A stretch of 50,896 nucleotides of DNA from contig VEQR01000014.1 in the NCBI GenBank assembly GCA_018883125.1, forward strand, positions 1 through 50,896, given 5' to 3'. The stretch comes from Candidatus Kapaibacterium sp. Lineage in GTDB: Bacteria > Bacteroidota > Ignavibacteria > Kapaibacteriales > Kapaibacteriaceae. The position numbers were made by a program, and so were the translations under genes. The notes beneath the pieces were generated by a model, which saw nothing but the letters and a program-made list of their open reading frames with translations, was not told the DNA's origin and made no database searches. Shown here one piece after another: positions 1 to 50,896 of the stretch. Numbering within the stretch: position 1 is the first letter of the stretch; each line of letters opens with the position of its first letter.

Positions 1-2
1 AC

Positions 3-311
3 AAGGCTCTGAAGTCGAAGCGCAATGTATACGCCGTCGGGTGCAGCGTGGTACGCGCACTTGAGTCGAGCGTCCTCACGAGCGGCATCGTCAAGCCCAA
101 CAGGGGATGGACGGACAAGTTCATTCATCCGCCGTATGAGTTCAAGATCGCCAACCGCTTCATTACGAACTTCCATCAGCCGGCATCACCATCGCTTCTT
201 GTTGCCACGGCCTTTGCCGGCGGCAAGGATGCCATGTTCAAGGCGTACAAGCGAGCCATGAAAACAGATTACCGTCTGTTTGCGTATGGCGATGCATTGA
301 TGATCATCTGA
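3..311 (+). CDS. queA: S-adenosylmethionine:tRNA ribosyltransferase-isomerase, C-terminal part (5' truncated by window edge)
   Basis: Frame reads KALKSKRNVYAVGCSVVRALES...KPNRGWTDKFIHPPYEFKIANRFITNFHQPASPSLLVATAFAGG...YRLFAYGDALMII, a typical QueA C-terminus. Confidence 0.9.
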   Translation, partial: KALKSKRNVYAVGCSVVRALESSVLTSGIVKPNRGWTDKFIHPPYEFKIANRFITNFHQPASPSLLVATAFAGGKDAMFKAYKRAMKTDYRLFAYGDALMII

Positions 312-331
312 CCAAACGAACGGAGAATTCC

Positions 332-1828
332 ATGAGTGCGTATGCCGATCTTCAGCGCGTGATGAATACAGCTGCCGATCTTGGCGCAGCTGCGTCTGTG
401 CTTGGTTGGGACCAAGAGACCTACATGCCGGATGGATCTGTCAGTGGCCGAGCCGACCAGTTGGCAACGCTCTCTGGTCTGGTACATGAGACTGTGACGG
501 GCGAGAAAGCCACGACAATTGCTGAAAGGGTACGTTCGGAGTACGCAACGTATGAGGAACGTAAGCGTCGTGTTGCGGCCATGTTTCTTCGTGATTTCGA
601 CAATGCGAAAAAGCTGCCGGGCGAGCATGTGGAAGACATGGCGCGCACAGCTTCAATGGCACAGGACGCATGGAAGCGTGCCCGGGGCGCTTCGGACTTC
701 GCGATCTTTCAGCCCCTTCTTGAGAAAATCGTTGATCTTAAGCGCCGGGAATCTGAGCTTCTTGGTCCAGCAGAGCATCCCTATGACAATCTCTTAGACC
801 AGTTCGAGCCCGGCTTGACTGTAGCCAGCGTCACACCGGTGTTCGACGAACTCCGCGCGGGAACTGTTGAACTCATCCGGTCGATCGCCGAAGTGCAGGG
901 GCGTGTTTCAGACGAGGTCCTTTATCGGTCCTATCCGCCGGAGCAGCAAAAGCAGACCGCAACGTCGATTATTTCGGCACTCGGTTTTGACTTGTCTATC
1001 GGGCGGGTGGATTTGTCGGCGCATCCGTTCTGCACCAACTTCGGAAACAAGGATGTTCGATTGACGACCCGCATCCGCGAGAACGACCTGCGCTCCTGTC
1101 TTTTCGGACTCATTCATGAGGCCGGGCATGGCATGTATGAGCAGGGTATTGCTGATGATCTGAATCGTACCTCGGCAGGGGGCGGCGCAAGCATGGGCAT
1201 CCATGAATCGCAGTCGTTGTTCTGGGAGAACGTCATTGCCCGTAGCGAAGAGTTTTGGACTTGGGCGTTTCCAATCCTGCGGAAGCAGTTCCCCGATCAG
1301 CTTGCAGACCAGACAGTTCGTTCCTTCTACCAGGCCATCAACGTCATGCGTCCGTCACTTAACCGCGTCGAGAGTGATGAGCTGACGTATAACCTGCACA
1401 TTATCCTTCGGTTTGAGATTGAGCGCGAGCTCATTGCCGGTTCGCTGAGTGTTAAGGACATTCCTGAAGTATGGAACGAAAAGATGCAGACATCGCTCGG
1501 AGTCGTTCCTCCAAATGATGCTGAGGGCTGTCTGCAGGATGTTCACTGGTCATTTGGAGGCATCGGGTACTTTCCGTCCTATACCCTTGGCAAGCTCTAT
1601 GCTGCGATGGAGTGGAACACCATGCAGCAGGACATTCCAGACGTTCGCAATAAGGTTGCTTCCGGTGACTTTGCCCCAATCCTATCGTGGCTCCGGGAGA
1701 AGATTCATACGCACGGTCGCACCGAGTTCCCGCATGAGATCGTCCAGCGCGTCTGTGGTCGCCCCCTGACGGCAAAGGACTTCCTCGACTACGTCGGTGG
1801 CAAGGCCCGCGACGTCTATGGCTTCTGA
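332..1828 (+). CDS. Carboxypeptidase Taq (M32) family metallopeptidase
   Basis: 498 aa; HEAGH zinc motif (GLIHEAGHGMYEQG), IHESQS and NRVESDELTYNLHIILRFEIE, all M32 hallmarks; SD-like ggagaa upstream of ATG. Confidence 0.93.
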   Translation: MSAYADLQRVMNTAADLGAAASVLGWDQETYMPDGSVSGRADQLATLSGLVHETVTGEKATTIAERVRSEYATYEERKRRVAAMFLRDFDNAKKLPGEHVEDMARTASMAQDAWKRARGASDFAIFQPLLEKIVDLKRRESELLGPAEHPYDNLLDQFEPGLTVASVTPVFDELRAGTVELIRSIAEVQGRVSDEVLYRSYPPEQQKQTATSIISALGFDLSIGRVDLSAHPFCTNFGNKDVRLTTRIRENDLRSCLFGLIHEAGHGMYEQGIADDLNRTSAGGGASMGIHESQSLFWENVIARSEEFWTWAFPILRKQFPDQLADQTVRSFYQAINVMRPSLNRVESDELTYNLHIILRFEIERELIAGSLSVKDIPEVWNEKMQTSLGVVPPNDAEGCLQDVHWSFGGIGYFPSYTLGKLYAAMEWNTMQQDIPDVRNKVASGDFAPILSWLREKIHTHGRTEFPHEIVQRVCGRPLTAKDFLDYVGGKARDVYGF

Positions 1829-2510
1829 GACATTTGCGGAATTCGTCGAGAGCTTTCTTCGTAACGTCAGCATCCCTGAGCCTCTGCCTTCTGGAATAGA
1901 GGTGTTGCAGCCATATAGCGATGCCGAGGTTCGCCGTGTGCTTCACACAATGTGCGTTCGATACTATGCAAAGTCATCTCGGCGTATTGGCGTATGGGGT
2001 ATCAATCCGGGTCGATTCGGTGCCGGTCTCACGGGGCTTGCCTTTACTGATCCATGGGCCGTACAGCATGATCTCGGCATCAACACAACACTCGGTGGAC
2101 GTCGGGAGATGTCGGCGGAATTCATCTCGATGGTCATTGCCGCCTATGGCGGACCACAGACATTCTACCATGACGTGTACATGTCGGCATTGTCGCCTCT
2201 GGGGTTTATCCGCAAGGGCGTGAACATCAATTTCTACGATGACCCTGCGCTCGAGAAACTGATGACGCCGAATATCATCAGGTGGATGGATGACGTTCTT
2301 TCCCACAACGTGCGCAGGGACGTGACAATTCTGCTCGGATCCGGGAAGCTCCGCACCTTCATGGAACGGTCAGTGAGAGAGGCCGTTGGAGTTTCGGAAG
2401 TGATCTATCTCGACCATCCTCGATACATCATGCAGTATCGACGTAGCTCTGTGCTGGAATACGTTCAGCTGTACGTTGACACCATCCGTGAGGCCGTACA
2501 TTCAACCTAG
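1818..2510 (+). CDS. SMUG2-like uracil-DNA glycosylase family protein (DUF4918-like)
   Basis: GINPGRFGAGLTGLAFTDP motif and late LDHPRYIMQYR segment, as in SMUG-type glycosylases; ATG overlaps the upstream stop codon (ORF track extends to 1797). Confidence 0.7.
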   Translation: MASETFAEFVESFLRNVSIPEPLPSGIEVLQPYSDAEVRRVLHTMCVRYYAKSSRRIGVWGINPGRFGAGLTGLAFTDPWAVQHDLGINTTLGGRREMSAEFISMVIAAYGGPQTFYHDVYMSALSPLGFIRKGVNINFYDDPALEKLMTPNIIRWMDDVLSHNVRRDVTILLGSGKLRTFMERSVREAVGVSEVIYLDHPRYIMQYRRSSVLEYVQLYVDTIREAVHST

Positions 2511-3650
2511 CAGCTTATCGGTCAGCCCAGTAGCAGTGAGCAGTTGTGCGAGCACACGTCTTGATTCATCCCGAGTGATCGTCCATGTCTGCGGTGGAAG
2601 AGCTTTGCATCGATCTCGCAACACGATGTAATCGGCTGCCGTCAGGTCCTTTAGCGCCGCATGGATTCTCTCTGGACTGACGTCATTTAGAACGATTCCG
2701 ATCCCGAGGGCATCATAGTATCTCCCAGTCTCAACGGTGCGCTGCGCAATCGGAACAACTCCTGCACGGCCCGATTCATAGATGCGGTTTGCTAAGGCCA
2801 ATGCAGAGTTCTGACCTTCGAGGAAGAAGTCGATCGTCCACGAGAAGTGGACGCCATCATAGATCTCGTCAAGGCCTTCGGGATACTGATACGGACCTTT
2901 GTAGGCGATCCATGCTGACCGGCCGACGATCTCGTCGAAATCGGGAATCTGATCATGCGAAACCCGACCTCGAATCACCACACGGATCGAACCGTTGGCA
3001 CTGGACGTTAGTTCGTCGAGAATGCGAAGGCTCTTTGCGCACCGTATCGCCCCATTCCACGCGATGATCCATGGGGGAGCCTCGGCAGGGGGCTGACATC
3101 GCGTTGTGGTTGGAACACCAAAGACCTTGTTCTCGATGAGAATTACCGGTAGAGTGATCTTCGCGATAGTCTGGAAATAGCTGTTAACATAGGCCGAGGA
3201 GCTTGTGATGAGTCCGGCGCAGCTTCGCGACAGCCTACGCTCAAGAGCTCGCAAGAGGCGCGGTGCAAGCCCCGTGCCCAGCATCAGCCGGTGAACGTCC
3301 AGGCATTCATAGATCAGGGGAATTTGACGTCCTGCGCGCATTTGCACAACCCGAGCCAGAACCAGCATTTCGAGGTTTCGGGCGATGATCATGTCCGCCT
3401 CGAAGACGGTATCTCGGCGAACAAGAAGCTTCATCGACTGCGCGAGGACGGTGAGCATTCGGTGCAGGAATCGGGCATTATGGGTTTGCGCCAGCACTGT
3501 TGCCGAAGAAAACTCCGGTACAAAGCGACGATCACGCACGAAACCAACCAGAGCTACGTCCGCACCGGCGTCGGTGAACATCTCCACACGTCGTTTCACC
3601 GCTGCGTCGGATAAATCGTGGACGAAATATCGTATGTTCACGCTGCTCAT
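2502..3650 (-). CDS. Glycosyltransferase (GT4-like)
   Basis: ~380 aa; N-terminal RYFVHDLSDAAVKRRVEMF..., IIARNLEMLVLARV, LIYECLDVHRL; resembles GT4 glycosyltransferases. Convergent with the upstream gene, with 9 bp overlap. Confidence 0.65.
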   Translation of the reverse strand: MSSVNIRYFVHDLSDAAVKRRVEMFTDAGADVALVGFVRDRRFVPEFSSATVLAQTHNARFLHRMLTVLAQSMKLLVRRDTVFEADMIIARNLEMLVLARVVQMRAGRQIPLIYECLDVHRLMLGTGLAPRLLRALERRLSRSCAGLITSSSAYVNSYFQTIAKITLPVILIENKVFGVPTTTRCQPPAEAPPWIIAWNGAIRCAKSLRILDELTSSANGSIRVVIRGRVSHDQIPDFDEIVGRSAWIAYKGPYQYPEGLDEIYDGVHFSWTIDFFLEGQNSALALANRIYESGRAGVVPIAQRTVETGRYYDALGIGIVLNDVSPERIHAALKDLTAADYIVLRDRCKALPPQTWTITRDESRRVLAQLLTATGLTDKLLG

Positions 3651-4486: not shown

Positions 4487-7400
4487 ATGTCGACAATGCA
4501 ACGTGCGTTTGGCATCGCATTCGCGATGTTGGTGCTCTGCTTCGTGACTGTCAGTGCAGCTGACGATGTGCAAACCGCTGGCCTTATTCGGAACGCCGGC
4601 CAATGGCCCAACAATGTTGTGGCATACAGTCACATCAGGGGCGTTGATGTATGGGTGACGCGCAACGGAGTCGTCGTCGACGAATATCTCGTGAGTGACG
4701 GCATTAGGACCGGCAACGTGGTTGAAGAGTACTTCGTTGGAGCGTCCGTAGTAGACGTGCCCGCCCCGGCTGGCTCGACGAGCGTGTCGTTCTTTACGAA
4801 CGGCTCTCATACACCGATACTCACGACCGCATCACGGGCTGACGTCATTCCATTCCGGTTCCCATCAGGTGCCGTTGTCAATGTCTCCGTCGCTGCTGAT
4901 GGAAGGATCGTGCGCTCGCTTCGCGAGGGAGACGAATCGCTGGCCAATAGTGTTACATACCTCCGTAAAGGTGATGTCAACAAAAACCAGACTATGGATG
5001 CCACCAAGGCGCAGTCCTTCGTGTACGGTTCGTATCTCGGTGGTGCGCAGTTTGATGCCATTACGAACATGGAGATGATGCCCAACGGGAATGTACTTGT
5101 TGCCGGTACGACACGGGAGCTCGCCTTTCCAACCGGTCTTGGTGGCTATTCTAAGACCATCAAGGCAGACCACGATGCCTTCGTTCTGATCTGTGACGCG
5201 AAGTTTCAGACCATCAAGGCAATGTCGTTTTTGGGAGGGTCAGGAGTAGACCGAACGCGTTCCCTTGCGCGAGACGACCAGAACAACATTTACCTCGCGA
5301 TAGAAACAAATTCGACGGATATGCCCGCCACACCATCTGCACAATCCAAGACGAACAAGGGTGGTTATGATGCCTTTGTTGCTCGGTTTGATTCCACGCT
5401 GACAAAGCTTCTTGCCGGGTTTTATCATGGTGGAAACCGCGATGATTCTCCCCGGAGCATTACGGTAGATCAGACTGGTTTGATCTATCTGGCAGGGGGT
5501 ACGATGTCGACGTCAGGCATGCCCAACAACATGACGCCAACGGCAAGTCTTACGTGGACCTATCAGGAAGGCATGAATACCAAGACGACAACCGTCGTGA
5601 TCAGTGCCGGCAACACCAACATGGGGCAAATGGATGGGTTTGTGGCCATCTATTCTCCGTCTGGCAGCATGCAGAAGTCGCGGTATTATGGCAATACTGG
5701 CAACGACATTATTACCAATGTAGCAGTGGACAGCCGCGGGTACATCGTCGTAACTGGTTCAACGACGTCGACGACCTTTGAAGCAATTCCAGCTGCCCAC
5801 CCAACATGGAGCGGGCGCTTGCCATATCGCAAAACATTCGGTGGTGGCACCACGGATGCCTTCATCGCAAAGATGAGTAGCGGACTGAATTTTTCTCAGT
5901 CAGATGGTGTGACCTTTGCCACTCTCTTCGGCGGTAACAAAGAGGAAGAACCAGTATCGCTATGGCTCGATGACGCAGGGAAGATTTTCGTTGCGGGCAA
6001 TACAACTTCGACGAATCTTCCTACCTCCGGTTCGGTCTACCCTACAGCCCTTGGAAAGCAAGACGGATTTGTCATTCAAATGGCGGACAATGGAACTTCG
6101 CTGTTGAATGGAACATACATTGGTGGTGCCGGTGATGACGTCGTCCGTAATGTGCGCCCAAGTCAGCGGACCTCGGCATTCCTCGTCTGCGGCGCAACAA
6201 CTTCTATGGACTTTCCTATCGAAGGCGTCGGAGCGATGTCCGAACGATTTGGTCCAACCGATGGGTTCTTCACCATGATGAACTTTGGTTCTCTGACGTT
6301 GTCGAGCCTTCTGGGTGGACTCCAGGCTGACACCGTCGCTGACTTCCTCCTTGATTTTCGCGGCGATGCGATGCTTGCCGCAAATACGACGTCTGGAAAC
6401 CTCCGCGTGCACGACTCTGCCTATGCAAAGCCAGGGGGCGGTTCGGACGGCTACCTGACAAAGTACTCGCCGGGTATCCTCGAGATCGTAACGCCAAAGG
6501 GTGGTGAGATATACTGTGTTGGTTCCAGCAAGCCCCTTTCTTGGGATGCCTCTGGTGTTTCCGACACAACGAAGTTCCGAATCGAGTACTCCGTCGAAGG
6601 GTCAGGTAAGTGGTCAGACGTTGTCAAGAGCATCGGCGGACGGTCCTACCTCTGGAAAATCCCGGCAAGCGTTGTCGCTGGCACCTATCGCATCCGAATA
6701 TCAACGGTCAATGGCCACGTAAGTGAGCTCACGACGCCCTTTACCATCGACATTCCGCCGACGATCAGTAAGCAGCCGATTTCGGCAACGGTGTGTGAAG
6801 GGGGCAAGCTGATGGTTGCCGTTACTGCCTCGAGTGTGGCAGCCAAGTACCAATGGAAGAAAGATGGGGTTGTGATTCCTGGCGCAACAGCCGCGACGTA
6901 TTCGGTTGACACCGCAACGTCGGCAATGGCTGGGCGCTATGAGTGCGTTATCACAGGAGATTGTCCGCCCGCCGTAACATCGCAGCCAGCCACCATCACA
7001 ATCACGGCAAAACCCGTCATCACGTCGCAGCCTGTGTCGCAGACACTTGATCTTGGCAAGCCCCTTACGTTGACGGTTGCTGCAACTGGACCGGGCCTAA
7101 CCTACCAGTGGATGAAGGATGGCGTGAAGGTAGATCAGGCCACCACGGCTACACTTAGCATTGCTTCCGTAAGCAAGAGTGACGAGGGAAGCTATGCGTG
7201 TGACGTAACGGGTGCATGCGGTATAACAACGTCTTCTGCCGCTATAATTCGCGTTAACAATGGGACGTCAGTTGGTGAGTACAGTGATAAGGATCTCGCC
7301 ATTCATCTTGTTGGACCTTCACCGGCATCAGATGTTGTCGTTTTCGCTGCTACTGCAACATCAGAGGCAGTTGGTCGCTTGACGATCATCGATATTCTCG

Positions 7401-7650: not shown

Positions 7651-10600
7651 ATGAGACGACTGTTATTATCTTTTCTCGCGATTCTCACTGCCTGGCTCGA
7701 CGTCAGCGCGATTTGTAGGCAGGTAACATCGGAGGATGATGCAACACCCATCGGCATCATTCGAAATGGTGGACAGTGGCCCGATAGCGTGCTGGCCTTG
7801 TACCATGCATCAGGACGTGATGTGTGGTTTACCAAAAGTGGTGTGATTCGTGACTCATACATCACCAGTGGTGCTAATCGTGTCGGACAGGTAGTGTATG
7901 AACCCTTCGGTGACGCGAAACCTTTTGACCAAACTGACAGCATCGGGGATGTTCCAATCACGTATATCAAAGGCAGCGTGGGTTCGACCATATCCACAGT
8001 TGCATCCATAAATCAATCGGTACGATACATTCATCCAGAAAATAGGGAAGTAACGTTTCGGATTTCGCGTGCGGGTGACCTAGTTCGCATCGAGCGGGGA
8101 ATCACTACTCTCGACACGAAGCTGTTGCGCCAAAGCGCTCGAAATGATAAGGGGCAGGAATCTGTTCTGGCAAAGGCATCCTCTGTGTTTACGGTGGGAA
8201 GCTATTTCGGAGGACCGGGCATTGATGAGATCGCGGCGATGGAGACTTTGCCCGACGGTACAATACTGATAGCTGGTTCCACAACACAAACAATGTTCCC
8301 GGAAAACCTTGGTGGATATTCTCGAGTGCTTGGTGGAAACTCCGATGGTTTCCTCGCTCGCATCGATGGATCATTTCGGAAAATCTATCGTTGGACGTTC
8401 ATTGGAGGTTCCGGTATCGACAGGATCAAGGGAATCGCGTTTGATAAAGCACGACGTATCTGCATCGTGACGCAGACCGACTCCTATGACATGCCTGTTC
8501 TGGCATTGGGATATACGCCCAAAACATCAGGTGGATATGAGGCTCACATTGCAGTTCTCGATTCAACGATGTCGAAGCTGGAGATGGGAACCTACCATGG
8601 CGGTACGAGCGATGACATCCCCTGTTGCATATCTGCTGACATCTTCGATGAAATCGTCATTGCAGGAACCACGACGTCGTACACAGGAATGCCCACAACG
8701 AAATCCACGCTTGAAGCAATCAGCGGCACCTACGAGTCGGGCGGTCGTACACTTGGGTACAGCTTTCAAGTGTCGAGCGGTAGACAAAGTGGAGGTAAAT
8801 CGGATGGTTTTATCGCGATTTATACAACGATGGGACAGCTCCGTGCTGCTCGCTACTATGGGGATGAGGGGAATGACACGATCACGGCCATGACAACGGA
8901 CAAACGTGGAAGAATCGTTTTTGCCGGAACCACAACAAGTCAGACGTTGACGACGGTACCTATTGTCTTTTCGGGATGGCCCGGACGCGTTCCACTTGTA
9001 CGATCCTACGCAGGTGGTGCGTCTGACGGATTCCTTGTGAAGATGAATCGGAATCTGAAATTGACGCAGACAGATAATGACGGCAATTTTGTCACCTACT
9101 TTGGTGGTAATGGAATCGATCGTATCACTGCGATTGACCTTGGAGTAAAGGAAGACATCTTCTTTGTTGGAAGTACCACTTCCAACGGATTTTATCGGTC
9201 GTCAAGCATCCAAAGCTCAGTTGCTGATAAGGGCGATGCGTACGTTGGCTGGTTGCGAACTGATGGAACAACTCTGGATGGTTTTACCTATTGGGGCGGA
9301 TCGGCTGATGATGAGGCACTCGCTGTGCAAGCCGACACCATGGCTGTTCGCGTCCTTTTTGGCGGCCGAACGTATTCCGAGGACTTCCCAACGATCGGGG
9401 CAGGATCTGTAGCCGGAATCAATGGTGAATACGATGGCTTTATTACAGCTCTTGACTTCAAGAGAGCCCGATTCTCGACACTCGTATCTGGAATCGGCAA
9501 CGATGAAGTTGTAGCATTCACGCAAGCGAAGAACTGCGATGCAGTCTTTGCGTTGAATACAACGTCTGATGATCTTCCCGTTACCGATTCGGCAGTTATG
9601 CGAATGCAGATTGGAGCTGGAAGCTATCTCAGTCGATACTCTCTTGGAGAGATAACACTCTCAACTCCTAAGGATGGGGATTTTGTCTGTGCAGGATCCG
9701 TGGTCAACATCTCATGGCAGACCTCAGGGCTTTCTGACACCGTGCGGTACTTCCTGGAGTATCGTAAAGTGGGAGCCAGTAATTGGACTACCATCGCTAA
9801 GAGTCTACGGTCGAAGTCGACCACATGGACAGTTCCTAGGGCAATCGTGCCAGGTGCCTACGAGGTTCGTGTCACGTCGCAGTTTGGGCATGCATCCAAG
9901 ACCACCAATCCGATTACGATAGACGTCAACCCCGCTGTGTCCTTACGATCATCCCCTCCGCGTGATTGTGAGGGGGCCTCAGTGCGGATGGTAGCGATAC
10001 CAGCCAACGTTGTCGCGACGTTTCAATGGCGACGAGATGGTGTCAATCTATCCGGATCAACGGATTCGGTATACGTGATCACGTCACTGGACGCTGGGAA
10101 TGTCGGACAATATGACTGCGTTGTCGGTGGACTCTGTTCACAGAGCGATACGTCAAAACCTCTTGAAGTGGGCGTTACGCTTCGCCCCGTTATCCGATCA
10201 CAGCCAATGTCGATTTCCGTCAATGTTGGCGAACGAATTCGCCTTGGCGTAGCAGTCGATGGGGCTGGCATGTCGTATCAGTGGTTCAGGGACAGTGTAA
10301 AGCTCAAAAACGCCGTCAACTCTGAGTACATCGTCGACAAGGCAACGGCCGCCGATAGCGGTCGATACTGGTGCTCCGTTTCCAATGTTTGCGGAACATC
10401 GGTCTCGGACACCGCCATAGTAGACGTTCGTGTTGGTACGTCGGTTTTCGAACAGCGATTTGATTCCGTCGCTCTTCGTTTGCTCTCGCCTCAGCCAGTT
10501 AGCGATGAACTCCTCATTGAATGTCGTGTGCCGGCCGAAACACTCAGTGTCTGTCTCACCGATCTGCGTGGACGTCAATTGATAGAACCCAAGGGAGTGA

Positions 10601-10864: not shown

Positions 10865-10866
10865 CG

Positions 10867-10901
10867 AAAGCCCCCTGAGAGATCCTTTCAGGGGGCTTTT
10901 T
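10867..10901 (+). terminator. Rho-independent terminator downstream of tRNA-Thr
   Basis: Perfect 12-bp stem AAAGCCCCCTGA (10867-10878) / TCAGGGGGCTTT (10888-10899), 9-nt loop, U-rich tail. Confidence 0.93.
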
Positions 10902-10924: not shown

Positions 10925-11314
10925 ATGGGAAACATCCCGCATAGCCTGATTGCTCTTCTCACCGCTGCCGCGATTGTGATGCTTGGCAGCGCATGTGAGA
11001 GTAAGACCAGATTTGGTCTGCCTGTGGAAGGGGAAGTCGTCGACATTGATTATGCTCTGACACAACCTGCTGTTGGCAGGACGGTGGTTCTGGAGGGGGC
11101 TCTGCACGGCGTCTGCCAGGACGAGGGGTGCTACTTCACGCTTTCTGATCGGGCGCACGAGATCCTTGTCCGGTACACCGGTGAGAACGGCCTTGGAATT
11201 CCGGTCGTTGCCCGCGGTAAGGCGCGTGTGCGCGGAAAAATCCGTGATACGATCATCGGACGAAACCGCGTTTCTGAGGTCCGCGCAACGGGCGTTGAAC
11301 TCCTTGGAGAATGA
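10925..11314 (+). CDS. Small exported OB-fold-like protein preceding the cytochrome c maturation genes
   Basis: 129 aa; hydrophobic N-terminus ending GSAC; VEGEVVDIDY...VLEGALHGVCQDEGCYFTLSD...VVARGKARVRGKIRDTIIG resembles OB-fold/CcmE-like strands. Confidence 0.55.
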   Translation: MGNIPHSLIALLTAAAIVMLGSACESKTRFGLPVEGEVVDIDYALTQPAVGRTVVLEGALHGVCQDEGCYFTLSDRAHEILVRYTGENGLGIPVVARGKARVRGKIRDTIIGRNRVSEVRATGVELLGE

Positions 11315-12541: not shown

Positions 12542-12946
12542 ATGCAATCCGAAACCTCCGTTAAACGGTCGATACCAATCAAGTTTGTCGTTGCCGCCAT
12601 AGCCATCCTCGGCTTTGCCGGATTAGGTGTATCAGCACTCCTCTCCAGTTCCGTCGAGTACACCAATGCAACCAGGGCAGAGCAGCTCGGCAAGACTGTC
12701 CAGATCGTTGGCACATGGGTAAAGGAACAGGGGGCTGAATATGATCAGCACAAGAACCTGTTCTCCTTTCATCTGCGGGATCAGCAGGGGAAAGTGGTTC
12801 CCGTTGTGCTGACAGGTGCCAAGCCGAACAACTTCGAGATCGCTGTGAGCGTTGTTGCTAAAGGTCGCATGGAAAACGGCGTCTTTCAGGCATCGTCGGT
12901 CCTCACGAAGTGTCCTTCGAAGTATGAGGGCCAGGCAGAGCAATGA
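12542..12946 (+). CDS. ccmE: Cytochrome c maturation protein CcmE, CxxxY-type
   Basis: TM anchor, OB-fold VQIVGTWVKEQGAEYDQHKNLFSFHLRDQQGKVVPVVLTGAKPNNFEIAVSVVAKGRMENGVFQASSVLTKCPSKYEG; CPSKY stands where HDENY is expected. ORF track start 12452 is upstream of the likely start. Confidence 0.85.
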   Translation: MQSETSVKRSIPIKFVVAAIAILGFAGLGVSALLSSSVEYTNATRAEQLGKTVQIVGTWVKEQGAEYDQHKNLFSFHLRDQQGKVVPVVLTGAKPNNFEIAVSVVAKGRMENGVFQASSVLTKCPSKYEGQAEQ

Positions 12947-13296
12947 TCCGTCGAATCATTTTGATCGGTGCGGTACTTAGCATCCCGGTCATTGTATACA
13001 TGGCTGTCTATCACGGACAGCCCCCTAACGTTACGTTCAGCGAAGCAATCGAAAAAACTCAGCACTCGAGTGAATCAGATCCTGCCTCAAAGGTCCTGGT
13101 CGATGTTGAGCTCCTCGACGTAGCGCGACTTACGGACATCGAAGCCAAGGACAACGCTGGACGCGTCTTTCGCATAGAGTACACCGGCACTGAGCCTGAT
13201 CGCCCCCTTGCTCCAAACACGCGTGCCCGGTTTGTTGGCCATGTGCACGGAGGCGAACCACCAATCTTTCACGCTACGCAGGTTCTGCTTCCATGA
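12943..13296 (+). CDS. Membrane-anchored OB-fold (CcmE-like) protein in the ccm operon
   Basis: 117 aa; N-terminal TM; VDVELLDVARLTDIEAKDNAGRVFRIEYTG...RARFVGHVHGGEPPIFHATQVLLP; overlaps both neighbours by 4 bp. Confidence 0.55.
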   Translation: MIRRIILIGAVLSIPVIVYMAVYHGQPPNVTFSEAIEKTQHSSESDPASKVLVDVELLDVARLTDIEAKDNAGRVFRIEYTGTEPDRPLAPNTRARFVGHVHGGEPPIFHATQVLLP

Positions 13297-39971: not shown

Positions 39972-41414
39972 ATGTTCAAACGCGTTCTGATTGCAAATCG
40001 CGGAGAGATCGCACTTCGTGTGATGCGAACCTGCCGTCGGCTCGGTATCGAAACAGTTGCGATCTACTCGGATGCTGATGTCAGCTCACCACACGTGAGC
40101 GAAGCAGATCACGCCATCGGTATCGGTGGGTTTACCCCACGTGAGTCATACCTCGTAGTCGATAAGGTCCTTGATGCCGCCCGCAGATCGGGTGCCGATG
40201 CAATTCATCCCGGATATGGTTTTCTGAGTGAAAATGCCGACTTCGCTCATGCCGTGGCTGAAATGGGATTGACATTCATCGGGCCTTCACCAGAGGCGAT
40301 CGCCATGCTAGGTGATAAAACAGCTGCGCGCGATCTGGCCATTCGGTCGGATGTACCGATCTCTCCCGGTAGTGATGGGGCTGTAGCAACATTCGACGAG
40401 GCCCGGGCTGTAGTTGAGCGCATTGGCTTTCCGGTCATCATCAAGGCTGCGGCCGGTGGTGGCGGTAAGGGGATGCGAATCGTCGAGGAGCAGAAGGACA
40501 TCGAAACGGCCTTTCGAGCTGCACAGAACGAAGCACTTGCGTCGTTCAATGACGAGCGGGTGTTCATCGAACGCTACATTGTTCAGCCTCGTCATATTGA
40601 GATCCAAATCCTGGCTGATCATCACGGAACAGTGCTCTATTTCCCGGAACGCGAGTGTTCCGTGCAGCGTCGACACCAAAAAGTCATCGAAGAGTCTCCG
40701 TCAACAGCAGTAACTCCGGCGATACGCCGGGCCATGGGGGAGGCGGCTGCACGACTTGTAACGGCATCCAACTACACCAATGCCGGAACACTTGAGTTTC
40801 TTCTCGACGCCAGCGGTGAATTCTATTTCATGGAAGTCAACACGCGTCTGCAGGTTGAGCACCCGGTGACGGAGATGATCAGCGGTGTGGACTTTGTTGA
40901 GCAACAACTGCTCATCGCCTTTGGCCAGCCCCTTGCCATGTCTCAGCAGGATATCGCCGAGCCCAAGGGGGCAGCAATTGAATGTCGAGTCTGTGCCGAA
41001 GACGTTTTCAACGAGTTTCTCCCAGACACCGGTGTGGTCTCGTTCATGCAGCTCCCCTCTGGTGATGGCATACGAAACGATACCGCCTTGTATGAGGGCT
41101 ACGAGGTTAGCGTTCATTACGACCCGATGGTTGCCAAACTTATCGTTCACGCTCCTACACGTCAGGAGTGCATCGAACGGACAATCGCCGCACTGGACGA
41201 CTATCACATTGTCGGCTTCAAGACAACAATTCCTTTTTGCCGACTCGTCCTCGACTCGGAGCCTTTCCGCACCGGTGCCTACAGCACGTTCTACGTAAAG
41301 GAACACTGGCCAATCGATCATGGTGATGAATTTCTCTCCATGCTCTCGCTTGTTTCAGCCGCCGGTTTCTCGGCAGAAGACGACAGACGTTCTCCCATGA
41401 ACCATAATGACTGA
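39972..41414 (+). CDS. accC: Biotin carboxylase (acetyl-CoA carboxylase subunit)
   Basis: MFKRVLIANRGEIALRVMRTCRRLGIETVAIYSDAD; KAAAGGGGKGMRIV; EVNTRLQVEHPVTE. Confidence 0.93.
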   Translation: MFKRVLIANRGEIALRVMRTCRRLGIETVAIYSDADVSSPHVSEADHAIGIGGFTPRESYLVVDKVLDAARRSGADAIHPGYGFLSENADFAHAVAEMGLTFIGPSPEAIAMLGDKTAARDLAIRSDVPISPGSDGAVATFDEARAVVERIGFPVIIKAAAGGGGKGMRIVEEQKDIETAFRAAQNEALASFNDERVFIERYIVQPRHIEIQILADHHGTVLYFPERECSVQRRHQKVIEESPSTAVTPAIRRAMGEAAARLVTASNYTNAGTLEFLLDASGEFYFMEVNTRLQVEHPVTEMISGVDFVEQQLLIAFGQPLAMSQQDIAEPKGAAIECRVCAEDVFNEFLPDTGVVSFMQLPSGDGIRNDTALYEGYEVSVHYDPMVAKLIVHAPTRQECIERTIAALDDYHIVGFKTTIPFCRLVLDSEPFRTGAYSTFYVKEHWPIDHGDEFLSMLSLVSAAGFSAEDDRRSPMNHND

Positions 41415-43644
41415 CATGACCCCACATAGCGAGATTGAAGTAACAGTCGAAACCGCACGCGAACTTGGACTCACTCCTGCGGAGTATGAGCGGATTTGTG
41501 GCGTCCTAGGACGCACCCCGTCATATACCGAGCTCGGTGTGTACTCGGTGATGTGGAGCGAGCACTGCTCCTACAAGAACTCGATTCTGCAGCTGAAGAC
41601 TCTACCGCGCACCGGAAGCCGAATGCTTGTGGCCGCTGGTGAGGAGAATGCCGGTGTTATCGACATCGGTGAAGGGTATGGCGTGGCATTCAAGATCGAG
41701 TCCCATAATCACCCCAGTGCCGTTGAGCCTTTTCAAGGTGCAGCCACCGGAGTTGGCGGTATTCTGCGCGACATCTTCACGATGGGGGCCCGTCCGATCG
41801 CTGCATTGAACTCGCTTCGGTTCGGAGAACCTGATACCGCGCGGACGAAGTATCTCGTCAAAGGGGTTGTCTCGGGAATTGGCCATTATGGTAATTGTTT
41901 TGGCGTGCCGACTGTTGCGGGAGAGATCTACTTCGATCGGTGCTACACAGACAATCCACTCGTCAACGCCATGGCCGTTGGTGTCCTGCGCTCTGATGGT
42001 ATGGCATCGGCAACAGCCAAAGGTCCTGGAAATCCGGTCTTTATCATGGGCTCGGGCACTGGACGTGACGGTATCCACGGGGCTTCACTGCTTGCATCAC
42101 GGGAGTTTGACGAAGAAACCGAAAACATGCGTCCGACGGTGCAGGTTGGCGATCCATTTGCAGAGAAGCTCCTACTTGAAGCATCCCTTGAGCTAATCGC
42201 TGCGGGAGTTGTGGTTGGGATGCAGGACATGGGCGCGGCAGGCATCTCGTGCTCAACGGCGGAAATGAGTGCCAAGGGCAACGTCGGTATGCGCATCGAT
42301 CTCGATAAGGTACCGCTTCGCGAGTCTGATATGTCGGCCTATGAAATCATGCTGTCGGAATCACAGGAACGCATGCTCGTGGTCATTGAACAGGGCTTGG
42401 AGCAACGTGCAGCAGCGATCTGTGCGAAGTGGGATGTCCCGTTTGTGCAGATTGGCCAGGTTACCGATGACGAACATGTAACCATTACTCGTCACGGTAC
42501 GCTTGTTGCACGAGTTCCGGCGCAGTCGCTGGTTCTGGGTGGCGAAGCACCCGTCTACGTGCGCGAACAGAAGCGTCCGGCCTACCTGGATGAGACGCAG
42601 AAGCCTGTTGACCACGGTCCGGTGATAGACGCCGAAGCGTTCGCGACAGTTCTCCCCAAGCTGCTTTCCTCGCCAACGATTGCCAGCAAGCGATGGGTGT
42701 ATGAGCAGTACGATTCGCAGGTCGGGGACAACTCCGTGATGCGCAGTGGAGGTGATGCCGCCGTTCTCCGTATCAAAGAACTTCCCGGCAAGGCCGTGGC
42801 TGTTACGACTGACTGTAATAGTCGTTATGTCTATCTCAATCCGTATCGCGGCGGCCTTATCGCTGTGGCTGAAGCGGCGCGTAATTGTGTGTGCGTTGGC
42901 GCTCTGCCGGTGGCAATCACAAACTGTCTCAACTTCGGAAATCCATACGATCCCGAAGTATACTATCAGTTCGCTGAAGCCATCCGTGGAATGGGGGACA
43001 TGTGCCGTGCACTTGATACGCCGGTAACGGGTGGCAATGTCTCGTTTCACAATGAATCGCAGAGTCATGCCGTATTCCCAACGCCAACGATCGGGATGCT
43101 CGGTCTTATCGATGACGTTTCGACCATCATTGGCAACAGTTTTACACAAGACGGACAGGTCGTTGCACTTCTCGGGTGGCATCGCAGCGAGCTTGGTGGA
43201 ACTGAGTATCAGAAGGTGATCCAAGGACGAATCACCGGAGACGCACCATGGATTGACATCAACGAAGAAGTCCGTCTGCAGCATGTGCTTCTCAATGCGA
43301 TCCGCTCAGGAACAGTCACCGCAGCCCACGACTGTGCTGAAGGTGGTGTGGCTGTTGCGCTTGCGGAGATGACCCTTGGTAAGGGGCTCGGAGCAACATT
43401 GAATTGGCCGTTCGACCGCACGGCGGCTGATCTGTTCGGCGAGGCGCAGAGCCGCGTGATCGTGACAATAGCGCCGGAGAACTACGACCAGTTTGTCGAG
43501 CAATGCCAGACCGATAATGTGCCGGTTCACCGCCTTGGCACGGTCGGTGGAGTTCACCTCGACCTATGGAATGGTTGCCACGTTTCTATTGATTCGATCC
43601 GCTCGGCCTATGAGGGTTCACTCCCTAGCATCATGGCCAGCTGA
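41407..43644 (+). CDS. purL: Phosphoribosylformylglycinamidine synthase subunit PurL
   Basis: 745 aa small-type PurL; MWSEHCSYKNS, FKIESHNHPSAVEPFQGAATGVGGILRDIFTMGARPIA. Confidence 0.97.
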   Translation: MTDMTPHSEIEVTVETARELGLTPAEYERICGVLGRTPSYTELGVYSVMWSEHCSYKNSILQLKTLPRTGSRMLVAAGEENAGVIDIGEGYGVAFKIESHNHPSAVEPFQGAATGVGGILRDIFTMGARPIAALNSLRFGEPDTARTKYLVKGVVSGIGHYGNCFGVPTVAGEIYFDRCYTDNPLVNAMAVGVLRSDGMASATAKGPGNPVFIMGSGTGRDGIHGASLLASREFDEETENMRPTVQVGDPFAEKLLLEASLELIAAGVVVGMQDMGAAGISCSTAEMSAKGNVGMRIDLDKVPLRESDMSAYEIMLSESQERMLVVIEQGLEQRAAAICAKWDVPFVQIGQVTDDEHVTITRHGTLVARVPAQSLVLGGEAPVYVREQKRPAYLDETQKPVDHGPVIDAEAFATVLPKLLSSPTIASKRWVYEQYDSQVGDNSVMRSGGDAAVLRIKELPGKAVAVTTDCNSRYVYLNPYRGGLIAVAEAARNCVCVGALPVAITNCLNFGNPYDPEVYYQFAEAIRGMGDMCRALDTPVTGGNVSFHNESQSHAVFPTPTIGMLGLIDDVSTIIGNSFTQDGQVVALLGWHRSELGGTEYQKVIQGRITGDAPWIDINEEVRLQHVLLNAIRSGTVTAAHDCAEGGVAVALAEMTLGKGLGATLNWPFDRTAADLFGEAQSRVIVTIAPENYDQFVEQCQTDNVPVHRLGTVGGVHLDLWNGCHVSIDSIRSAYEGSLPSIMAS

Positions 43645-44848: not shown

Positions 44849-45685
44849 CTAGAGCGTAAAGCCCTTGCCCGATTTTATTCCGTGAAGTCCGGCATCAACA
44901 TACTGCTGCTGCAGTAATGATGGCGTGAAACGGGGCTCATGGAAGAACTGTTCCCATTGCGACTTCGTGACGTCCAAATTGACATCGACTCCAATGAGAT
45001 CCATGAGTTCAAACGGTCCCATCTTAAAACCAAGCCCCTTCAAGAGCGTATCAACTTGGGGTATGGTGCTGGCCCCTTCCATGACGATGCGCTGAGACTC
45101 GTTGTAGTAGTTCCGAGCAATGCGGTTGACGATGAATCCCGGGGCATCAGCGGCAACTACAGGAGTTTTGCCAAGCCCCTTTGCATACTCAACACAGATT
45201 TGAACAGTAACCGATGACGTACGAGGCCCTTTAATGATCTCCACCAGCTTCATGATGTGTGCCGGATTGAAGAAGTGGAGCCCGACAAAACGAGTTGGGT
45301 TTTCCAGTACCCGCGCAAGCGACGCAATGCTGATGCTTGACGTATTTGTTGCGAGAATGGCCTCCGATGCAACAACCTTTTCGAGACTGCTAAAAAGGCT
45401 GTGCTTGATATCGATTCTCTCGGCAATGGCTTCAATGACCATGTCTGCGGCATGTAGCGCACCAAGATCCGTGGATACAGTGACCGATGCCGAAGCCGTA
45501 CCATACTGTTCCTCGGTCATCTTTCCCTTCTCCACGGCCTTACGGAGCTGTTCACGGACTGCGGTCTGAGCAGCTAGGAGGGCAGTCTCAGACAAGTCGA
45601 ACATGATGACCGTATGACCAGCTGACAGGCTGGAAATAGCTATGCCGCGTCCCATCGTACCGGCGCCACAGATACCGATGATCAT
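44849..45685 (-). CDS. 3-hydroxyacyl-CoA (3-hydroxybutyryl-CoA) dehydrogenase
   Basis: [63 protein letters not shown]. Confidence 0.94.
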
Positions 45686-46881
45686 TGGATAACTCCCAAT
45701 TCCTTGCCAACAGAGCCGAATGCTGCAATCGCCTTGTCGAGATGTTCGCGGGTATGTGCCGCCGACACTTGAACTCGGATACGTGCCTTGCCTTTCGGCA
45801 CAACAGGGAAGAAGAATCCGATCACATAGATGCCATGATCAAGGAGTCGGTCAGCCATCTTTTGTGCCAAGGGGGCATCATAGAGCATCACCGGGGTGAT
45901 CGGATGCGTCCCCGGGATGATGTCAAATCCGAGGGCGGACATACCACTGCGGAAGTAGGCGGTGTTTTCCTCCAGTCGATCGCGTAGTTCGGTCGTCGAA
46001 CTCAACAGGTCCATAACCGCAATGCCTGCTCCGACGATAGACGGTGGAAGTGAATTCGAGAAGAGGTATGGACGCGAGCGTTGACGCAACATGTCGATGA
46101 TCTGTTGGCGGCCGGTGGTGAATCCTCCTATGCCCCCTCCAAGGGCCTTGCCGAGAGTCCCGGTGATGATGTCAACGCGTCCGGTAACACCGCAATGTTC
46201 AACAACGCCTCGTCCGTGGGCCCCCATGAAACCCATCGAATGGCATTCATCGACCATGACAAGAGCAGAGTATTGGTCCGCAAGGTCACAGATCTTGTCA
46301 AGGGGCGCGATAGTTCCGTCCATGGAAAACACAGCGTCAGTAACAATCAGAATCGATCGCGCTCCGTCGGCACGAGCCTGGCGCAGCTGAACTTCGAGAT
46401 CCTCCATGTTGCACGACTCATACCGATATCGCTTGGCCTTGCACAAACGCACTCCATCGATGATCGAAGCATGGTTCAGAGAGTCGGAAATGATCGCGTC
46501 TTCTTCGCCGAGAAGGGGTTCAAACACTCCTCCATTCGCATCAAAACATGCGGCGTACAAGATCGTATCATCCGTGCCACAGAAGTCCGCAACCTTGCGT
46601 TCCAGCTCCTTGTGGATGTCCTGCGTGCCGCAGATGAAACGCACGCTCGACATTCCAAAGCCGTGCGAATCCAAGTAGTTCTTTGCGGCGTCAATGACCG
46701 ATGGATGCGATGACAGACCGAGATAATTATTTGCACAGAAGTTCAGTACAGGCTCGCTGCGGCCCTGCACACGGATCTCGGGGCCCTGCTGCGAGACAAT
46801 GATCCGTTCGCGCTTGTAGAGACCGGCATGGTCAATGGATTCAAGCTCAGATGAAAGACGCGATAGAAATGATGCGTCCAT
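45682..46881 (-). CDS. kbl: Glycine C-acetyltransferase (2-amino-3-ketobutyrate CoA ligase)
   Basis: [69 protein letters not shown] track starts at 46923. Confidence 0.94.
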
Positions 46882-47007: not shown

Positions 47008-50000
47008 ATGAAAGTTCAAATGCCGTCTATCCGCTCCAATTCTTTCGTGCTTGTGGTTCTTGCATGCATCATCAGCGCTCCTGATGGTCTCGCACAGAAA
47101 ACGTTCGAAGAACTCCGCCGAGACTATCAGCAGTCCGTTGAAGTGCCAGGCTCCGATGGTAAAGTCAAGATCAACAAACAATTCCGTCGTTGGGAATGGT
47201 TCTGGCAAAGTCGCGTGATGCCGGATGGCACACTTCCGACTGCGTCGGTGTATCTGAAGGAGCTTCAAAGTCTCCAACGGTCCAAGCAGGCAGAAGACGT
47301 ATTGGCTCCAAAGACATGGAAGGAACTTGGCCCGATTGCACCTGACATGCCCTCAGCGCTATCGACGTGGAATGGAATCGGCCGTGTGAACTGCATCGAG
47401 TTCTCGCGGAAGGATCCGAACGTTCTGTATGCCGGGGCAGCTGCCGGGGGTATATGGAAGACAACCAATGGAGGCACGCTCTGGCGACCAGTTCCCATCC
47501 CATCGATTCCGGTGATCGGGATTACTGACATGGCGATTGCGCCATCAAATGACGACGTCATGTACGTGGCCACGGGAGATGCCAACGGTGCGATCGCTGG
47601 ACAGTTGTCGCGATACAATACCTTTAGCTACGGTATCATCAAGACAACAGATGGGGGACAGACGTGGAAGCAGACGAACTTCTCCAATGAGCCTGCCGAT
47701 AATGCGCTTATTGGCCGCCTATGGGTTGACCCACGCGATCCAAACATTGTTGTGGCCGCAACCTATTCGGGGATGTATCGTACGACCAATGGGGGTGCGA
47801 ATTGGACCCGTACAGCCCCGGGTATCTTCCGCGAGCTTATTGGCAATCCTGTGTCAATACCAACGCTGTATGCGGCTACATACGGCTTCAACGGCGGAGC
47901 AACGATCTATCGAAGCACGGACGCTGGTGTGACGTGGAACGACGTTTACTCTATCGCGCAGGCCAATCGCATTCGTCTCGCGGTAACGAAGGCCAATCAA
48001 AACGTTGTTGTTGCGCTTGCATCGAATGCGAGTTCTCAAGGTTTTGAAGGGGTCTATAAGTCGACCGATGCGGGATCGAGTTTCGCTGAGTTGCCTACGT
48101 CTTTGAATCTTCTCGGATGGCAGGCAAGTGGACGCGACAATGGTGGTCAGGGATTCTATGACCTTGCACTCGAGGTCTCGCCGACGAATGCAAACCACAT
48201 CTTTGTAGGTGGCGTCAACATTTGGCGTACCACAACTGATGGCCGAGATTGGGTTTTGTCCGCGCATTGGACTGGCGATGGAGGAGCCCCTTTCGTTCAT
48301 GCCGACCAGCATTCGTTCCGATATCATCCGTCAAACAACCGACTGTATGCCACGCACGACGGCGGTATCGCGCGCTCAACGGATGGCGGTATTACCTGGC
48401 GTGATATTTCAAACGGATTGGCAATTCAGCAGTATTACGGACTTGCCACGTCGAATGTCAATCCGGCGATAACAATCGCTGGTGCTCAGGACAACGGGAC
48501 GGCCCTGTCAAAAAATGGTGGAGCCACGTTCGTTCATACGCTAGACGGAGATGGAATGCTCGGTGCGATCGATGCGGTCTCACCATCGATCATGTACGGT
48601 AGCCAATACTATGGAAACTTCTGGCGCACGAGTAATGCCGGTACGAACTGGACATTTGTCTCAAGTGCTCAAGCACGGGGCGAAAACAATGCATCGTGGG
48701 TAGCTCCGATTGCTGTTGATCCTCGCCTTCAAGGAACTGTTTTTATTGGGTACACACAGGTTTGGAAGAGCACGAATTCTGGATCGAATTGGACGAAGAT
48801 CTCCAACATCCCAACATCGACCTCAGCCCGATTCATTGCCGTTGCTCCGTCGAACTCAAACTACATCTACGTTGCCTACAATACGTCGTTGTACTTCACC
48901 ACGAACGGTGGTACGTCATGGCAGCAGCAGACCGGAATTTCGGGCTTTATTATGGGTGTCGAGGTTCATCCGTCGCAGCCCGACAAATTCTATGTGGCCA
49001 TAGGTGGATTCTCCCAGGCGCAGAAGGTTTATCAAGTCGACAAGGGCGTGGTAAGTAACATCACCGGCACGGGCCTACCAAACGTGCCATGCAATAGCGT
49101 TGTGTACCAGCGTGGTGCAACCAACCGACTGTATGCCGGCACTGACGTGGGGGTCTTTGTGTCTGACGAAGGCTCTGGATTCTGGCAGCTGTATGGAGCA
49201 GGACTTCCACCGGTGATTGTGACGGGAATGCGACTGATATCCTCGTCGAACCTCCTACGAATCTCAACGTATGGTCGTGGAATCTGGGAAGTGGATGTGG
49301 CTCAATGTGCGGCGACAGCGCCAAAGATCTCAGCACTAACGCCAACAACGCGATGCGCTGGAGACACAGTTGTCCTTGAGGCTGATGCAGGATTTGCGAG
49401 TTATCGGTGGTCGAACGGAGATACGACGCGCCAGATCCGCCTGTCGAATGCGGCCCAGTCCGGGTCTTATCAGGTCGGAGTCGAGGACGCGAAGGGCTGC
49501 CGTGCAACGTCGAGCGCTATTGCGGTATCGCTCAGCAAGTTGCCCTCGAAGCCCCTTGTCTCCAAGATTGCGCCGGATACACTTCGTTCATCGGCACTGG
49601 GTGGTGTCACCAGGTTTTCGTGGTCACGCAATGGAGTCGTGATCCCTGGTGCGACGGCGCGCACACTTCAGACAACTCAGAGCGGCACGTATCGTGTTGT
49701 TGTTTCCGATGGTACGTGCATTAACGTCTCGGATGAATTTGCTTTCGTCTATGAAGGTACGTCCGTGAGCGAGGACGGAGCAGGGCAGGGCGTTCTGTCA
49801 ATCACACCAATTCCTGTTATGGATGAGTTGACGGTTAACCTTCCAGCGCGCATACAACGAACCCTAGAGATCGTTGATTTATCGGGCCGTGTGCTCTATC
49901 GCGGATCTGTTGCCGATGACGTTTCGGTCTTCCAGACGTCAACAGCTGCTTGGTCATCGGGTGCGTACATCGTACAATTGCGCAGCGCCAGTGCGATCTG

Positions 50001-50025: not shown

Positions 50026-50062
50026 GGCCTCTTCTCTGAGGCGCATCCGCGTCTCATGTGAT

Positions 50063-50812
50063 TCACGGTTGGCGTCCGAGAATTGCGTCATAACGCTTTT
50101 CCATTGAGCGTCGGCCGGTAATGAACCTGTCGTACGATGCATGGCTCTCGTTCATAGCGTCTGTGCGGAGCGTATCTCGGACAACTGTTAGGGATTCAGA
50201 GATCATTCTCTGAACAGTGCGAATCGGAGTGCCGGCATCAATATCAAGGGGCTCACCAAATCGCACCCAGCAGCAAGGCCGTTGTTCGCGCAGGAGTTCA
50301 TATCGCATAGCAACAGGAAGAATTCTGCACTGGCCAAGCATGCGGGTAAGAATGCCGATTCCCGGCTCGCAGTCGATCGATTCAACGTCCTGGTGAATGA
50401 GCGTTCCTTGCGGGTACATCCAGAGCATACGGTTGGAATTGCTAAGCCTGGAACCCGCGTATCGCAAGGATTTCATTGCACTGTTCGGATCTTCACGGAT
50501 AACGCTGAACATTCCGAGTCGGGAAAAGAATCGATACCGATGCAATTGTCGGTATTCCATCATCCCATCGGTGTCCAGTCTGTGACGCGAGAACGCAAGC
50601 GACATGGCAACAGCAGCATCCCACCAGGATGCATGTGTCGAGGCAACGATCGTTGGGATGTTGTCGCTACCTCTACTGAGCTTGACAAGGTGATGCTCTC
50701 CGGCGATGTACCCGGCGGAAAAGTGCCGTCGAAGTGTCCACGAGAAGTAGGCACCCCAGAAGCGTCGGTCAAGTGTGCGAGGACGGGCAGGGATGAAGGG
50801 TTGGGTTGACAT
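50063..50812 (-). CDS. Lysophospholipid acyltransferase family protein (PlsC-like)
   Basis: VASTHASWWDAAVAMSLAF (H-x4-D), MYPQGTLIHQD; 249 aa. Confidence 0.8.
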   Translation of the reverse strand: MSTQPFIPARPRTLDRRFWGAYFSWTLRRHFSAGYIAGEHHLVKLSRGSDNIPTIVASTHASWWDAAVAMSLAFSRHRLDTDGMMEYRQLHRYRFFSRLGMFSVIREDPNSAMKSLRYAGSRLSNSNRMLWMYPQGTLIHQDVESIDCEPGIGILTRMLGQCRILPVAMRYELLREQRPCCWVRFGEPLDIDAGTPIRTVQRMISESLTVVRDTLRTDAMNESHASYDRFITGRRSMEKRYDAILGRQP

Positions 50813-50845
50813 GGGTAATTTGCAGGAACTGAAAGCTACTACTAC

Positions 50846-50896
50846 GTGGAACGGAATTCAAATCGCGTCATCGTCGGCATGTCCGGCGGCATCGAC
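50846..50896 (+). CDS. mnmA: tRNA-specific 2-thiouridylase MnmA, N-terminal fragment (cut by window end)
   Basis: GTG start; frame reads (M)ERNSNRVIVGMSGGID, matching the MnmA PP-loop start. Confidence 0.65.
   Translation, partial: MERNSNRVIVGMSGGID

Follow-up and report, generated by a model that had tools for sequence, protein, structure and literature searches.

The iterated motif of the window

The stretch analysed here, hereafter the window, is the whole 50,896-nucleotide contig VEQR01000014.1 (C121) of a 2.90 Mb metagenome-assembled genome (MAG) of Candidatus Kapaibacterium sp. (G000; 199 contigs, 98.97% complete, contamination 4.07%). Its genes and intergenic regions are interspersed with a short non-palindromic word, ARGGGGC, for which a possible role as a DNA-uptake signal is considered below. 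An exact count finds 35 copies on the forward strand and 30 on the reverse strand, against 17.2 expected from base composition alone. The first-pass annotation had arrived at a tally of about 35 and 30, which stands, and at an expectation of 12-18; most of its site coordinates are at most 2 bases off and all lie within about 40, the worst being 21361 for a site at 21398. It was right that CGGGGC and TGGGGC are rarer than the motif, but its figure of roughly a dozen each was too low, there being 22 of each with both strands summed.

The enrichment is not confined to the window. Throughout the genome ARGGGGCT occurs 1971 times (981+990) compared with 106 (49+57) for the reversed control, an 18.6-fold enrichment, and AAGGGGCT occurs 1005 times (473+532) compared with 76 (34+42). 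Word statistics were drawn from 356 kb sampled from the same genome. Here ARGGGGC is found 502 times where a trinucleotide Markov model predicts about 45, and the two top-ranking 8-mers under this model are AGGGGGCT (129 vs 3.9 expected) and AAGGGGCT (138 vs 5.6). ARGGGGC has a density of about 1.4 per kb, and the density of the 8-mer is roughly half of this, at about 0.7 per kb.

Codon usage had been called a poor explanation of the motif and the codon-aware null bears this out. Genes were called throughout with a simple codon-score caller, and when synonymous codons are shuffled within them, which preserves the protein and the codon usage of each gene, 29 sense and 35 antisense copies of ARGGGGC are obtained compared with the 230 and 200 observed. 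The genes thus exceed the null about sevenfold (430 vs 64), and an attempt to refute the motif on grounds of codon usage therefore fails; a scan of 8-mers against a codon-aware null, made in three genomes that carry the motif, likewise speaks against such an origin. ARGGGGC is found in all reading frames, its orientation relative to genes is 229:198, and it is at least as dense between genes (1.67 per kb) as within them (1.37 per kb). The counts, the shuffling and the orientation fully support the earlier description of a dense, strand-neutral and frame-independent signal.

Other words are frequent in the window and the sampled stretches L089-L108 of the same genome (L-numbers denote sampled loci in genomes of the family): the 10-mers AGTCATCAGT, TACGGAGTTA and GTAACTCCGT are present in 43, 26 and 28 copies, respectively, and look like repeat families separate from the motif. 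In the 22 kb locus L009, from a related genome, TTATGAC occurs 24 times (1.3 expected), which is probably a local repeat array.

Anatomy and dialects

The refined consensus reads t-GG-c/a-A-R-GGGG-C-T-t. Its core is A-N-GGGG-C-T, where N is A or G far more often than C or T, and where G or A can take the place of the terminal T, though less often. Only these second and eighth bases of the core are freely variable; other changes bring the counts near background and A-GGGGGG-C is avoided. Once the motif itself is masked, one-mismatch forms amount to 0.92 times the expectation overall, any excess being limited to the second and eighth bases together with a mild one at two positions of the G run of AAGGGGCT.

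The core is surrounded by a weaker footprint with T at -4, GG at -3/-2, C or A at -1, T at +8 and a patch from +10 to +18. The GG at -3/-2 is common to the well-sampled motif-rich genera, whereas positions +10 to +14 are genus-specific (cc in G000, GGCAT in the single-contig genome G014, gtGgt in G011) around a constant core. With its flanks the motif resembles the asymmetric footprint that a protein might leave, about two helical turns long and differing in dialect between genera. In having a sharp core with a weaker extended flank, one-off forms far scarcer than the perfect core and a similar copy number, it resembles the uptake signal sequence (USS) of Pasteurellaceae, from which it differs by its G-rich core with a degenerate second base and by an excess of one-off forms that is slight outside the second and eighth bases. 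It also resembles the DNA uptake sequence (DUS) of Neisseriaceae, another short non-palindromic word that is present in thousands of copies on both strands, at a density of the same order, with dialects between related genera and some family members that lack the word (PMC3630211). The sequence and the phylum are different.

The spacing of the motif is nearly exponential (coefficient of variation 0.89) and shows no marked evenness, the distribution being close to random. Short-range pairs are mostly inverted (27 of the 32 within 60 bp) and several intergenic inverted pairs form perfect hairpins, among them the pair at 10870/10890 of the window, which is followed by a T run. DUS copies are similarly re-used in terminator hairpins.

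The main rival to an uptake signal is a word that a methyltransferase or mismatch repair creates and preserves on the chromosome, with no role in uptake. The model for this is the cyanobacterial highly iterated palindrome HIP1 (GCGATCGC), which also has flank extensions and lineage-specific gains and losses, and for which an origin in methylation or repair has been proposed (PMC4390886). The sharp core, the mostly unenriched one-off forms and the lack of polarity described below would all fit, and pili would be unnecessary. HIP1, however, is palindromic with symmetric methylation and is tied to GATC/CGATCG methyltransferases, whereas ARGGGGCT is asymmetric and its genus-specific flank to +14 suggests a longer asymmetric binding site. 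No methyltransferase linked to the motif was identified, although no systematic search for one was made. This explanation is considered unlikely, though it deserves to be taken seriously.

Phylogenetic range and conservation

The survey covered 23 genomes of the family, all fragmented assemblies except for G014. AAGGGGCT is enriched about 4 to 25-fold in 11/11 genomes of the genus to which the window belongs, and the motif is also enriched in genera g2, g4 and g5 of the same family; the motif-rich genera span a GC content of 48 to 60%. Genus g3 shows no enrichment, and g6 and g7 show a marginal one or none. Nor is the enrichment shared by any of the 29 other families in the class, where counts are at control level and ratios of 2 to 3.5 are reached only with tiny counts. 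The nearest named relatives of the window are MAGs labelled 'Ignavibacteria bacterium', of which L009 shares 79% of PurL residues with it; the organism can therefore be classed as an as yet uncultured bacterium related to Ignavibacteria (NCBI phylum Ignavibacteriota), at no finer rank. In the PurL tree G003, G005 and G008, the genomes with weak enrichment, group together in a single clade that is nested inside the genus and sister to the most enriched genomes, and they therefore look like cases of decay of an ancestral motif.

A word scan for an alternative dialect in the motif-free genera gave none in G015 and G016. In G012 (genus g3) it gave a weak word, CGGCAAGG/GGCGGCAA, enriched 3.6-fold, which is not convincing as a dialect. 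The loci of this genome (L113, L114, L129-L135) carry an iterated word around GGCGGCAAGG at about 3.6 times the codon-aware null, which may be due to codon context or represent a weak signal of another kind. A separate observation concerns G011, where a nearly motif-free stretch (L155, G011:C3:1-20000, positions 2636-15337) has 54% GC in a 48% GC genome and carries dnaX- and recR-like housekeeping genes; it is possibly a contaminating contig in that assembly.

Copies of the motif are conserved at orthologous places, a check that the first-pass annotation had pointed to. Over about 11 kb that can be aligned at 73% nucleotide identity, 11/17 window sites are also motif sites in G002, a genome of the same genus, compared with 1/16 for GC-rich degenerate control words in the same alignments (p 8e-4). 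In G004 and in G010 11/17 window sites are kept as well, with the same window sites recurring in several genome pairs so that pooled p values overstate independence. The decayed clade has kept 6/40 sites (15%), which is indistinguishable from the 12% control level.

An origin of the motif as a by-product of codon usage or composition, or as an artefact of sequencing or binning, is refuted by these results and has nothing left in its favour. It is contradicted by the synonymous shuffling and the 8-mer scan, by the intergenic density and by orthologous conservation; the recurrence in the 11 genomes and in further genera of varied GC content rules out an artefact or the oddity of a single MAG. 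Its likelihood is negligible.

Motif sites in the window

The exact ARGGGGC sites are collected in Table 1, with remarks on conservation taken from the alignment with relatives. Two adjacent large genes encoding surface-protein-like products (4439-7552 and 7651-10725) are alike in their N-terminal stretches and are probably a tandem duplication.

Table 1. Exact motif sites and the terminator-like hairpin in the window
Motif site or feature	Coordinates	Strand	Remark
AAGGGGCT	712..718	-	
AGGGGGC	1177..1183	+	
AGGGGGC	1761..1767	-	
AGGGGGCT	3087..3093	+	
AGGGGGC	6433..6439	+	
AAGGGGCT	6532..6538	-	
AGGGGGC	6799..6805	+	
AAGGGGCT	7060..7066	-	
AAGGGGC	8149..8155	+	
AGGGGGC	9971..9977	+	
Intergenic inverted motif pair, terminator-like hairpin and T run	10866..10901	+	-28.5 kcal/mol, z -6.2
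AGGGGGCT	10870..10876	-	hairpin 5' arm
AGGGGGCT	10890..10896	+	hairpin 3' arm
AGGGGGCT	11094..11100	+	
AGGGGGCT	12729..12735	+	
AGGGGGCT	13020..13026	-	
AGGGGGC	13202..13208	-	
AGGGGGCT	13779..13785	+	
AAGGGGC	14582..14588	+	
AAGGGGCT	15199..15205	+	
AAGGGGCT	15494..15500	-	
AAGGGGCT	15977..15983	-	
AAGGGGCT	16331..16337	+	
AAGGGGC	17692..17698	+	
AGGGGGCT	18053..18059	-	
AGGGGGC	19539..19545	-	
AGGGGGC	19707..19713	+	
AAGGGGCT	20382..20388	+	
AAGGGGC	21398..21404	-	
AGGGGGC	22361..22367	+	
AAGGGGCT	23109..23115	-	
AGGGGGCT	25067..25073	-	
AAGGGGCT	26370..26376	+	
AGGGGGCT	26509..26515	-	
AGGGGGC	26977..26983	-	
AGGGGGC	27445..27451	+	
AAGGGGCT	28765..28771	-	
AGGGGGCT	29307..29313	+	
AGGGGGC	29549..29555	-	
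AAGGGGCT	30177..30183	+	
AAGGGGC	30977..30983	-	
AGGGGGCT	31098..31104	+	
AGGGGGCT	31501..31507	+	
AAGGGGCT	32951..32957	+	
AGGGGGCT	33249..33255	+	
AAGGGGCT	33309..33315	-	
AGGGGGCT	34319..34325	-	
AAGGGGC	35329..35335	+	
AAGGGGCT	36166..36172	-	conserved in L009/G002
AAGGGGCT	36536..36542	+	conserved as AGGGGGC in L009/G002
AGGGGGC	37566..37572	+	
AAGGGGCT	37947..37953	-	conserved in L009/G002
AGGGGGC	38859..38865	+	conserved in L009/G002
AGGGGGC	39897..39903	+	conserved in L009/G002
AAGGGGCT	40928..40934	-	
AGGGGGC	40966..40972	+	
AAGGGGCT	43381..43387	+	conserved in L009/G002
AAGGGGCT	45034..45040	-	conserved in L010
AAGGGGC	45072..45078	-	conserved as GCCCCCT in L009/G002
AAGGGGCT	45175..45181	-	
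AGGGGGC	45870..45876	+	
AGGGGGC	46132..46138	-	conserved in L009/G002
AAGGGGC	46300..46306	+	conserved in L009/G002
AAGGGGCT	48286..48292	-	conserved in L009/G002
AAGGGGCT	49551..49557	-	
AAGGGGCT	50246..50252	+	

Strand use and acquired DNA

The motif has no polarity beyond that of the DNA in which it lies. Strand counts are homogeneous between stretches (chi-squared 12.3 for 19 in G000 and 9.6 for 20 in G014). In G014 the sites are distributed 121:92, which places 56.8% on the G-rich strand compared with 56.6% expected from local composition, and a 75% leading-strand bias like that of Chi in E. coli is rejected at 7e-9. A correlation between motif strand and GC skew (r 0.65) had hinted at a replication bias, but it vanished against the local-composition expectation. 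As strand use follows local base composition, these results argue against both FtsK-orienting polar sequences (KOPS) and an E. coli-like Chi. The earlier remark that the lack of polarity speaks against KOPS is borne out, while the Chi-like option that had been left beside it is disfavoured in its E. coli form.

A Chi-like recombination signal for an enzyme of the AddAB/RecBCD type is suggested by the over-representation of a short G-rich word, which the motif has in common with known Chi sites (GCTGGTGG and analogues), and by PDDEXK_1 proteins in 23/23 genomes, some of them of AddB- or AddA-like length. This nuclease is also present in the motif-free genera, though, and the dialect-bearing footprint of the motif is longer than 8 bases; together with the strand use this makes a Chi-like signal quite improbable. 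A site for chromosome organisation or segregation, be it KOPS, nucleoid occlusion or an architectural protein, would account for a motif that is dense, genome-wide and conserved at orthologous places. It is at odds with the absence of the motif from whole genera of the family, its decay in one clade and its near-random spacing, and the lack of polarity excludes a guide of the KOPS type, so that a signal of this kind is also judged improbable.

In G014 a 38.5% GC island within a 49% GC genome (L178, G014:C1:560001-580000, about 1-18500) encodes a cytosine DNA methylase and a CusA-like heavy-metal efflux system and is apparently acquired DNA. This single island contains one site in 18.9 kb. The genome rate would give 14.7, and the count observed is at background for DNA of the island's composition.

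Two further loci of this genome are of separate interest. A 3,274-residue surface-protein-like open reading frame (L183, G014:C1:1260001-1280000, 1-9822) has no motif over 10 kb. L188 (G014:C1:1960001-1980000, about 1078-11440) carries an array resembling clustered regularly interspaced short palindromic repeats, with about 158 repeats at a period of 65-66 bases, whose spacers could point to phages of the family.

Competence genes and a candidate surface operon

Genes for DNA uptake, for which the search covered the proposed pathway apart from RecA, are present in most genomes of the family. ComEC was found in 21/23 genomes (no match in G003), DprA in 22/23 and a ComEA-like helix-hairpin-helix (HhH) protein in 22/23; for the G000 copy of this last protein, the matches to the NCBIfam comE and ComEA HhH models fall short of the cut-offs. 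A DUF5689 protein is encoded in 20/23 genomes. This protein additionally contains an endonuclease/exonuclease/phosphatase domain, in which GDFND-like and SDH-like motifs are conserved, and the G000 copy shows a weak match to a type IX secretion tail just below the cut-off; a profile search of the protein against solved structures gave no match. Just upstream of its gene, in 7/8 genomes examined, lies a gene for an outer-membrane barrel of about 1,100 residues (the gene caller is unreliable at this locus in G015), with CarboxypepD_reg, Plug and OMP_b-brl_4 domains in the cases scanned. A separate DUF4397 lipoprotein gene is located between the two in 6/8 genomes examined, and a NamZ/DUF1343 gene is found near the cluster in several. 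In the genome of the window the barrel, lipoprotein and DUF5689/DNase-like genes occupy positions 3757-9559 of L255 (G000:C45:14000-24502).

This arrangement is reminiscent of Riemerella, a member of the Bacteroidota, which transforms with ComEC, DprA, ComF, RecA and four proteins that are absent from the classical machine, namely an adjacent pair of a DUF5689 and a CarboxypepD_reg outer-membrane protein, both essential for transformation, an HhH protein and a DUF1343 protein (PMC8459023). By comparison of domains the family shares ComEC, DprA, the HhH protein and DUF5689 beside a CarboxypepD_reg outer-membrane protein with NamZ/DUF1343 nearby, and it differs in the DNase I-like domain of its DUF5689 protein. 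R. columbina favours its own DNA in uptake (PMC7965970), but no convincing uptake motif has been reported in Riemerella, only A-rich words. Judging from its domains, the barrel/DUF4397/DUF5689 operon is thus a candidate for a Riemerella-like transformation machine. Because genera without the motif have the operon too, it is no more than a candidate, and its presence does not explain the motif. The presence or absence of ComEC, DprA, the HhH protein or DUF5689 showed no association with the loss of the motif.

A proposed uptake signal for self-recognition

It is proposed that the motif is a self-recognition signal for DNA uptake that works like DUS in Neisseria or USS in Haemophilus, and among the readings considered this is the most likely one, with about even odds of being right. 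The tests that fit are the density and sharpness of the motif, its dialects, its conservation in orthologues, its re-use in terminators, its background level in the island and the competence genes. Such a pattern, in a motif that is moreover neutral in orientation and has decayed as a unit in one clade, is in Neisseriaceae and Pasteurellaceae attributed to uptake-biased recombination (PMC3630211, PMC1939737).

Several observations weigh against this proposal. No match above the cut-off for a pilus ATPase of the pilT/pilB type was obtained in the 23 genomes, apart from one weak fragment below it, and a secretin was found in 0/23; both searches recovered their targets in control genomes. To our knowledge, every uptake-sequence receptor that has been characterised or proposed is a type IV pilin, as is the DUS receptor ComP. 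With the motif masked, one-off forms show no overall enrichment, in contrast to the graded excess that has been described for DUS and USS (PMC1939737). ComEC has no match in the MAG of the window, possibly due to an assembly gap, and nearly every genome analysed is a MAG. The competence genes and the operon occur in motif-free genera and in the decayed clade, and so do not predict the motif; G012, which lacks the motif, has the cluster, and G015, likewise motif-free, has the DUF5689 gene. Lastly, the homology of the operon to the Riemerella system is judged from domain architecture.

Since the search of the family gave neither a confident pilus ATPase nor a secretin, there is no support for carrying the Neisseria or Haemophilus mechanism over directly, and the motif is not classed as a member of DUS or USS. 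The analogy with uptake sequences made in the first-pass annotation, which had also looked to comEA, comEC and pilin genes, holds for most of the sequence tests and for ComEC, the ComEA-like protein and DprA, and lacks the type IV pilus as an expected companion; uptake itself we infer.

An uptake signal in this family would instead employ a pilus-independent surface route as in Riemerella, made up of the CarboxypepD_reg/Plug β-barrel, the DUF4397 lipoprotein and the DUF5689/DNase-like protein. A surface receptor, presumably encoded by this operon, would bind the motif and prefer double-stranded DNA containing t-GG-n-ARGGGGC-T-t, and the DNA would then pass to the periplasmic ComEA-like HhH protein and on to ComEC, DprA and RecA. 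Uptake of fragments released by relatives would be followed by their recombination into the chromosome, with motif-bearing alleles being transmitted more often. Such biased uptake could drive the accumulation of the motif in either orientation, in every reading frame and in terminators.

Implications

No report of the motif, or of uptake sequences in Ignavibacteria, was found in the literature. The motif may tentatively be seen as part of a third uptake-sequence system that evolved independently and would be the first known from outside Proteobacteria as well as the first to work without type IV pili. In this system the surface operon would recognise ARGGGGCT with genus-specific flank dialects; this wider claim is quite possible but falls short of probable. 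If true, self-recognition of DNA would have evolved again in a distant phylum with different machinery, and the motif would offer a way into the pilus-independent uptake of Bacteroidota-like bacteria, which is poorly understood. Were uptake to be refuted, there would still be a non-palindromic motif, densely maintained and with genus dialects, to explain. The family also constitutes a natural experiment, with sister lineages that are rich in the motif, have let it decay or are free of it.

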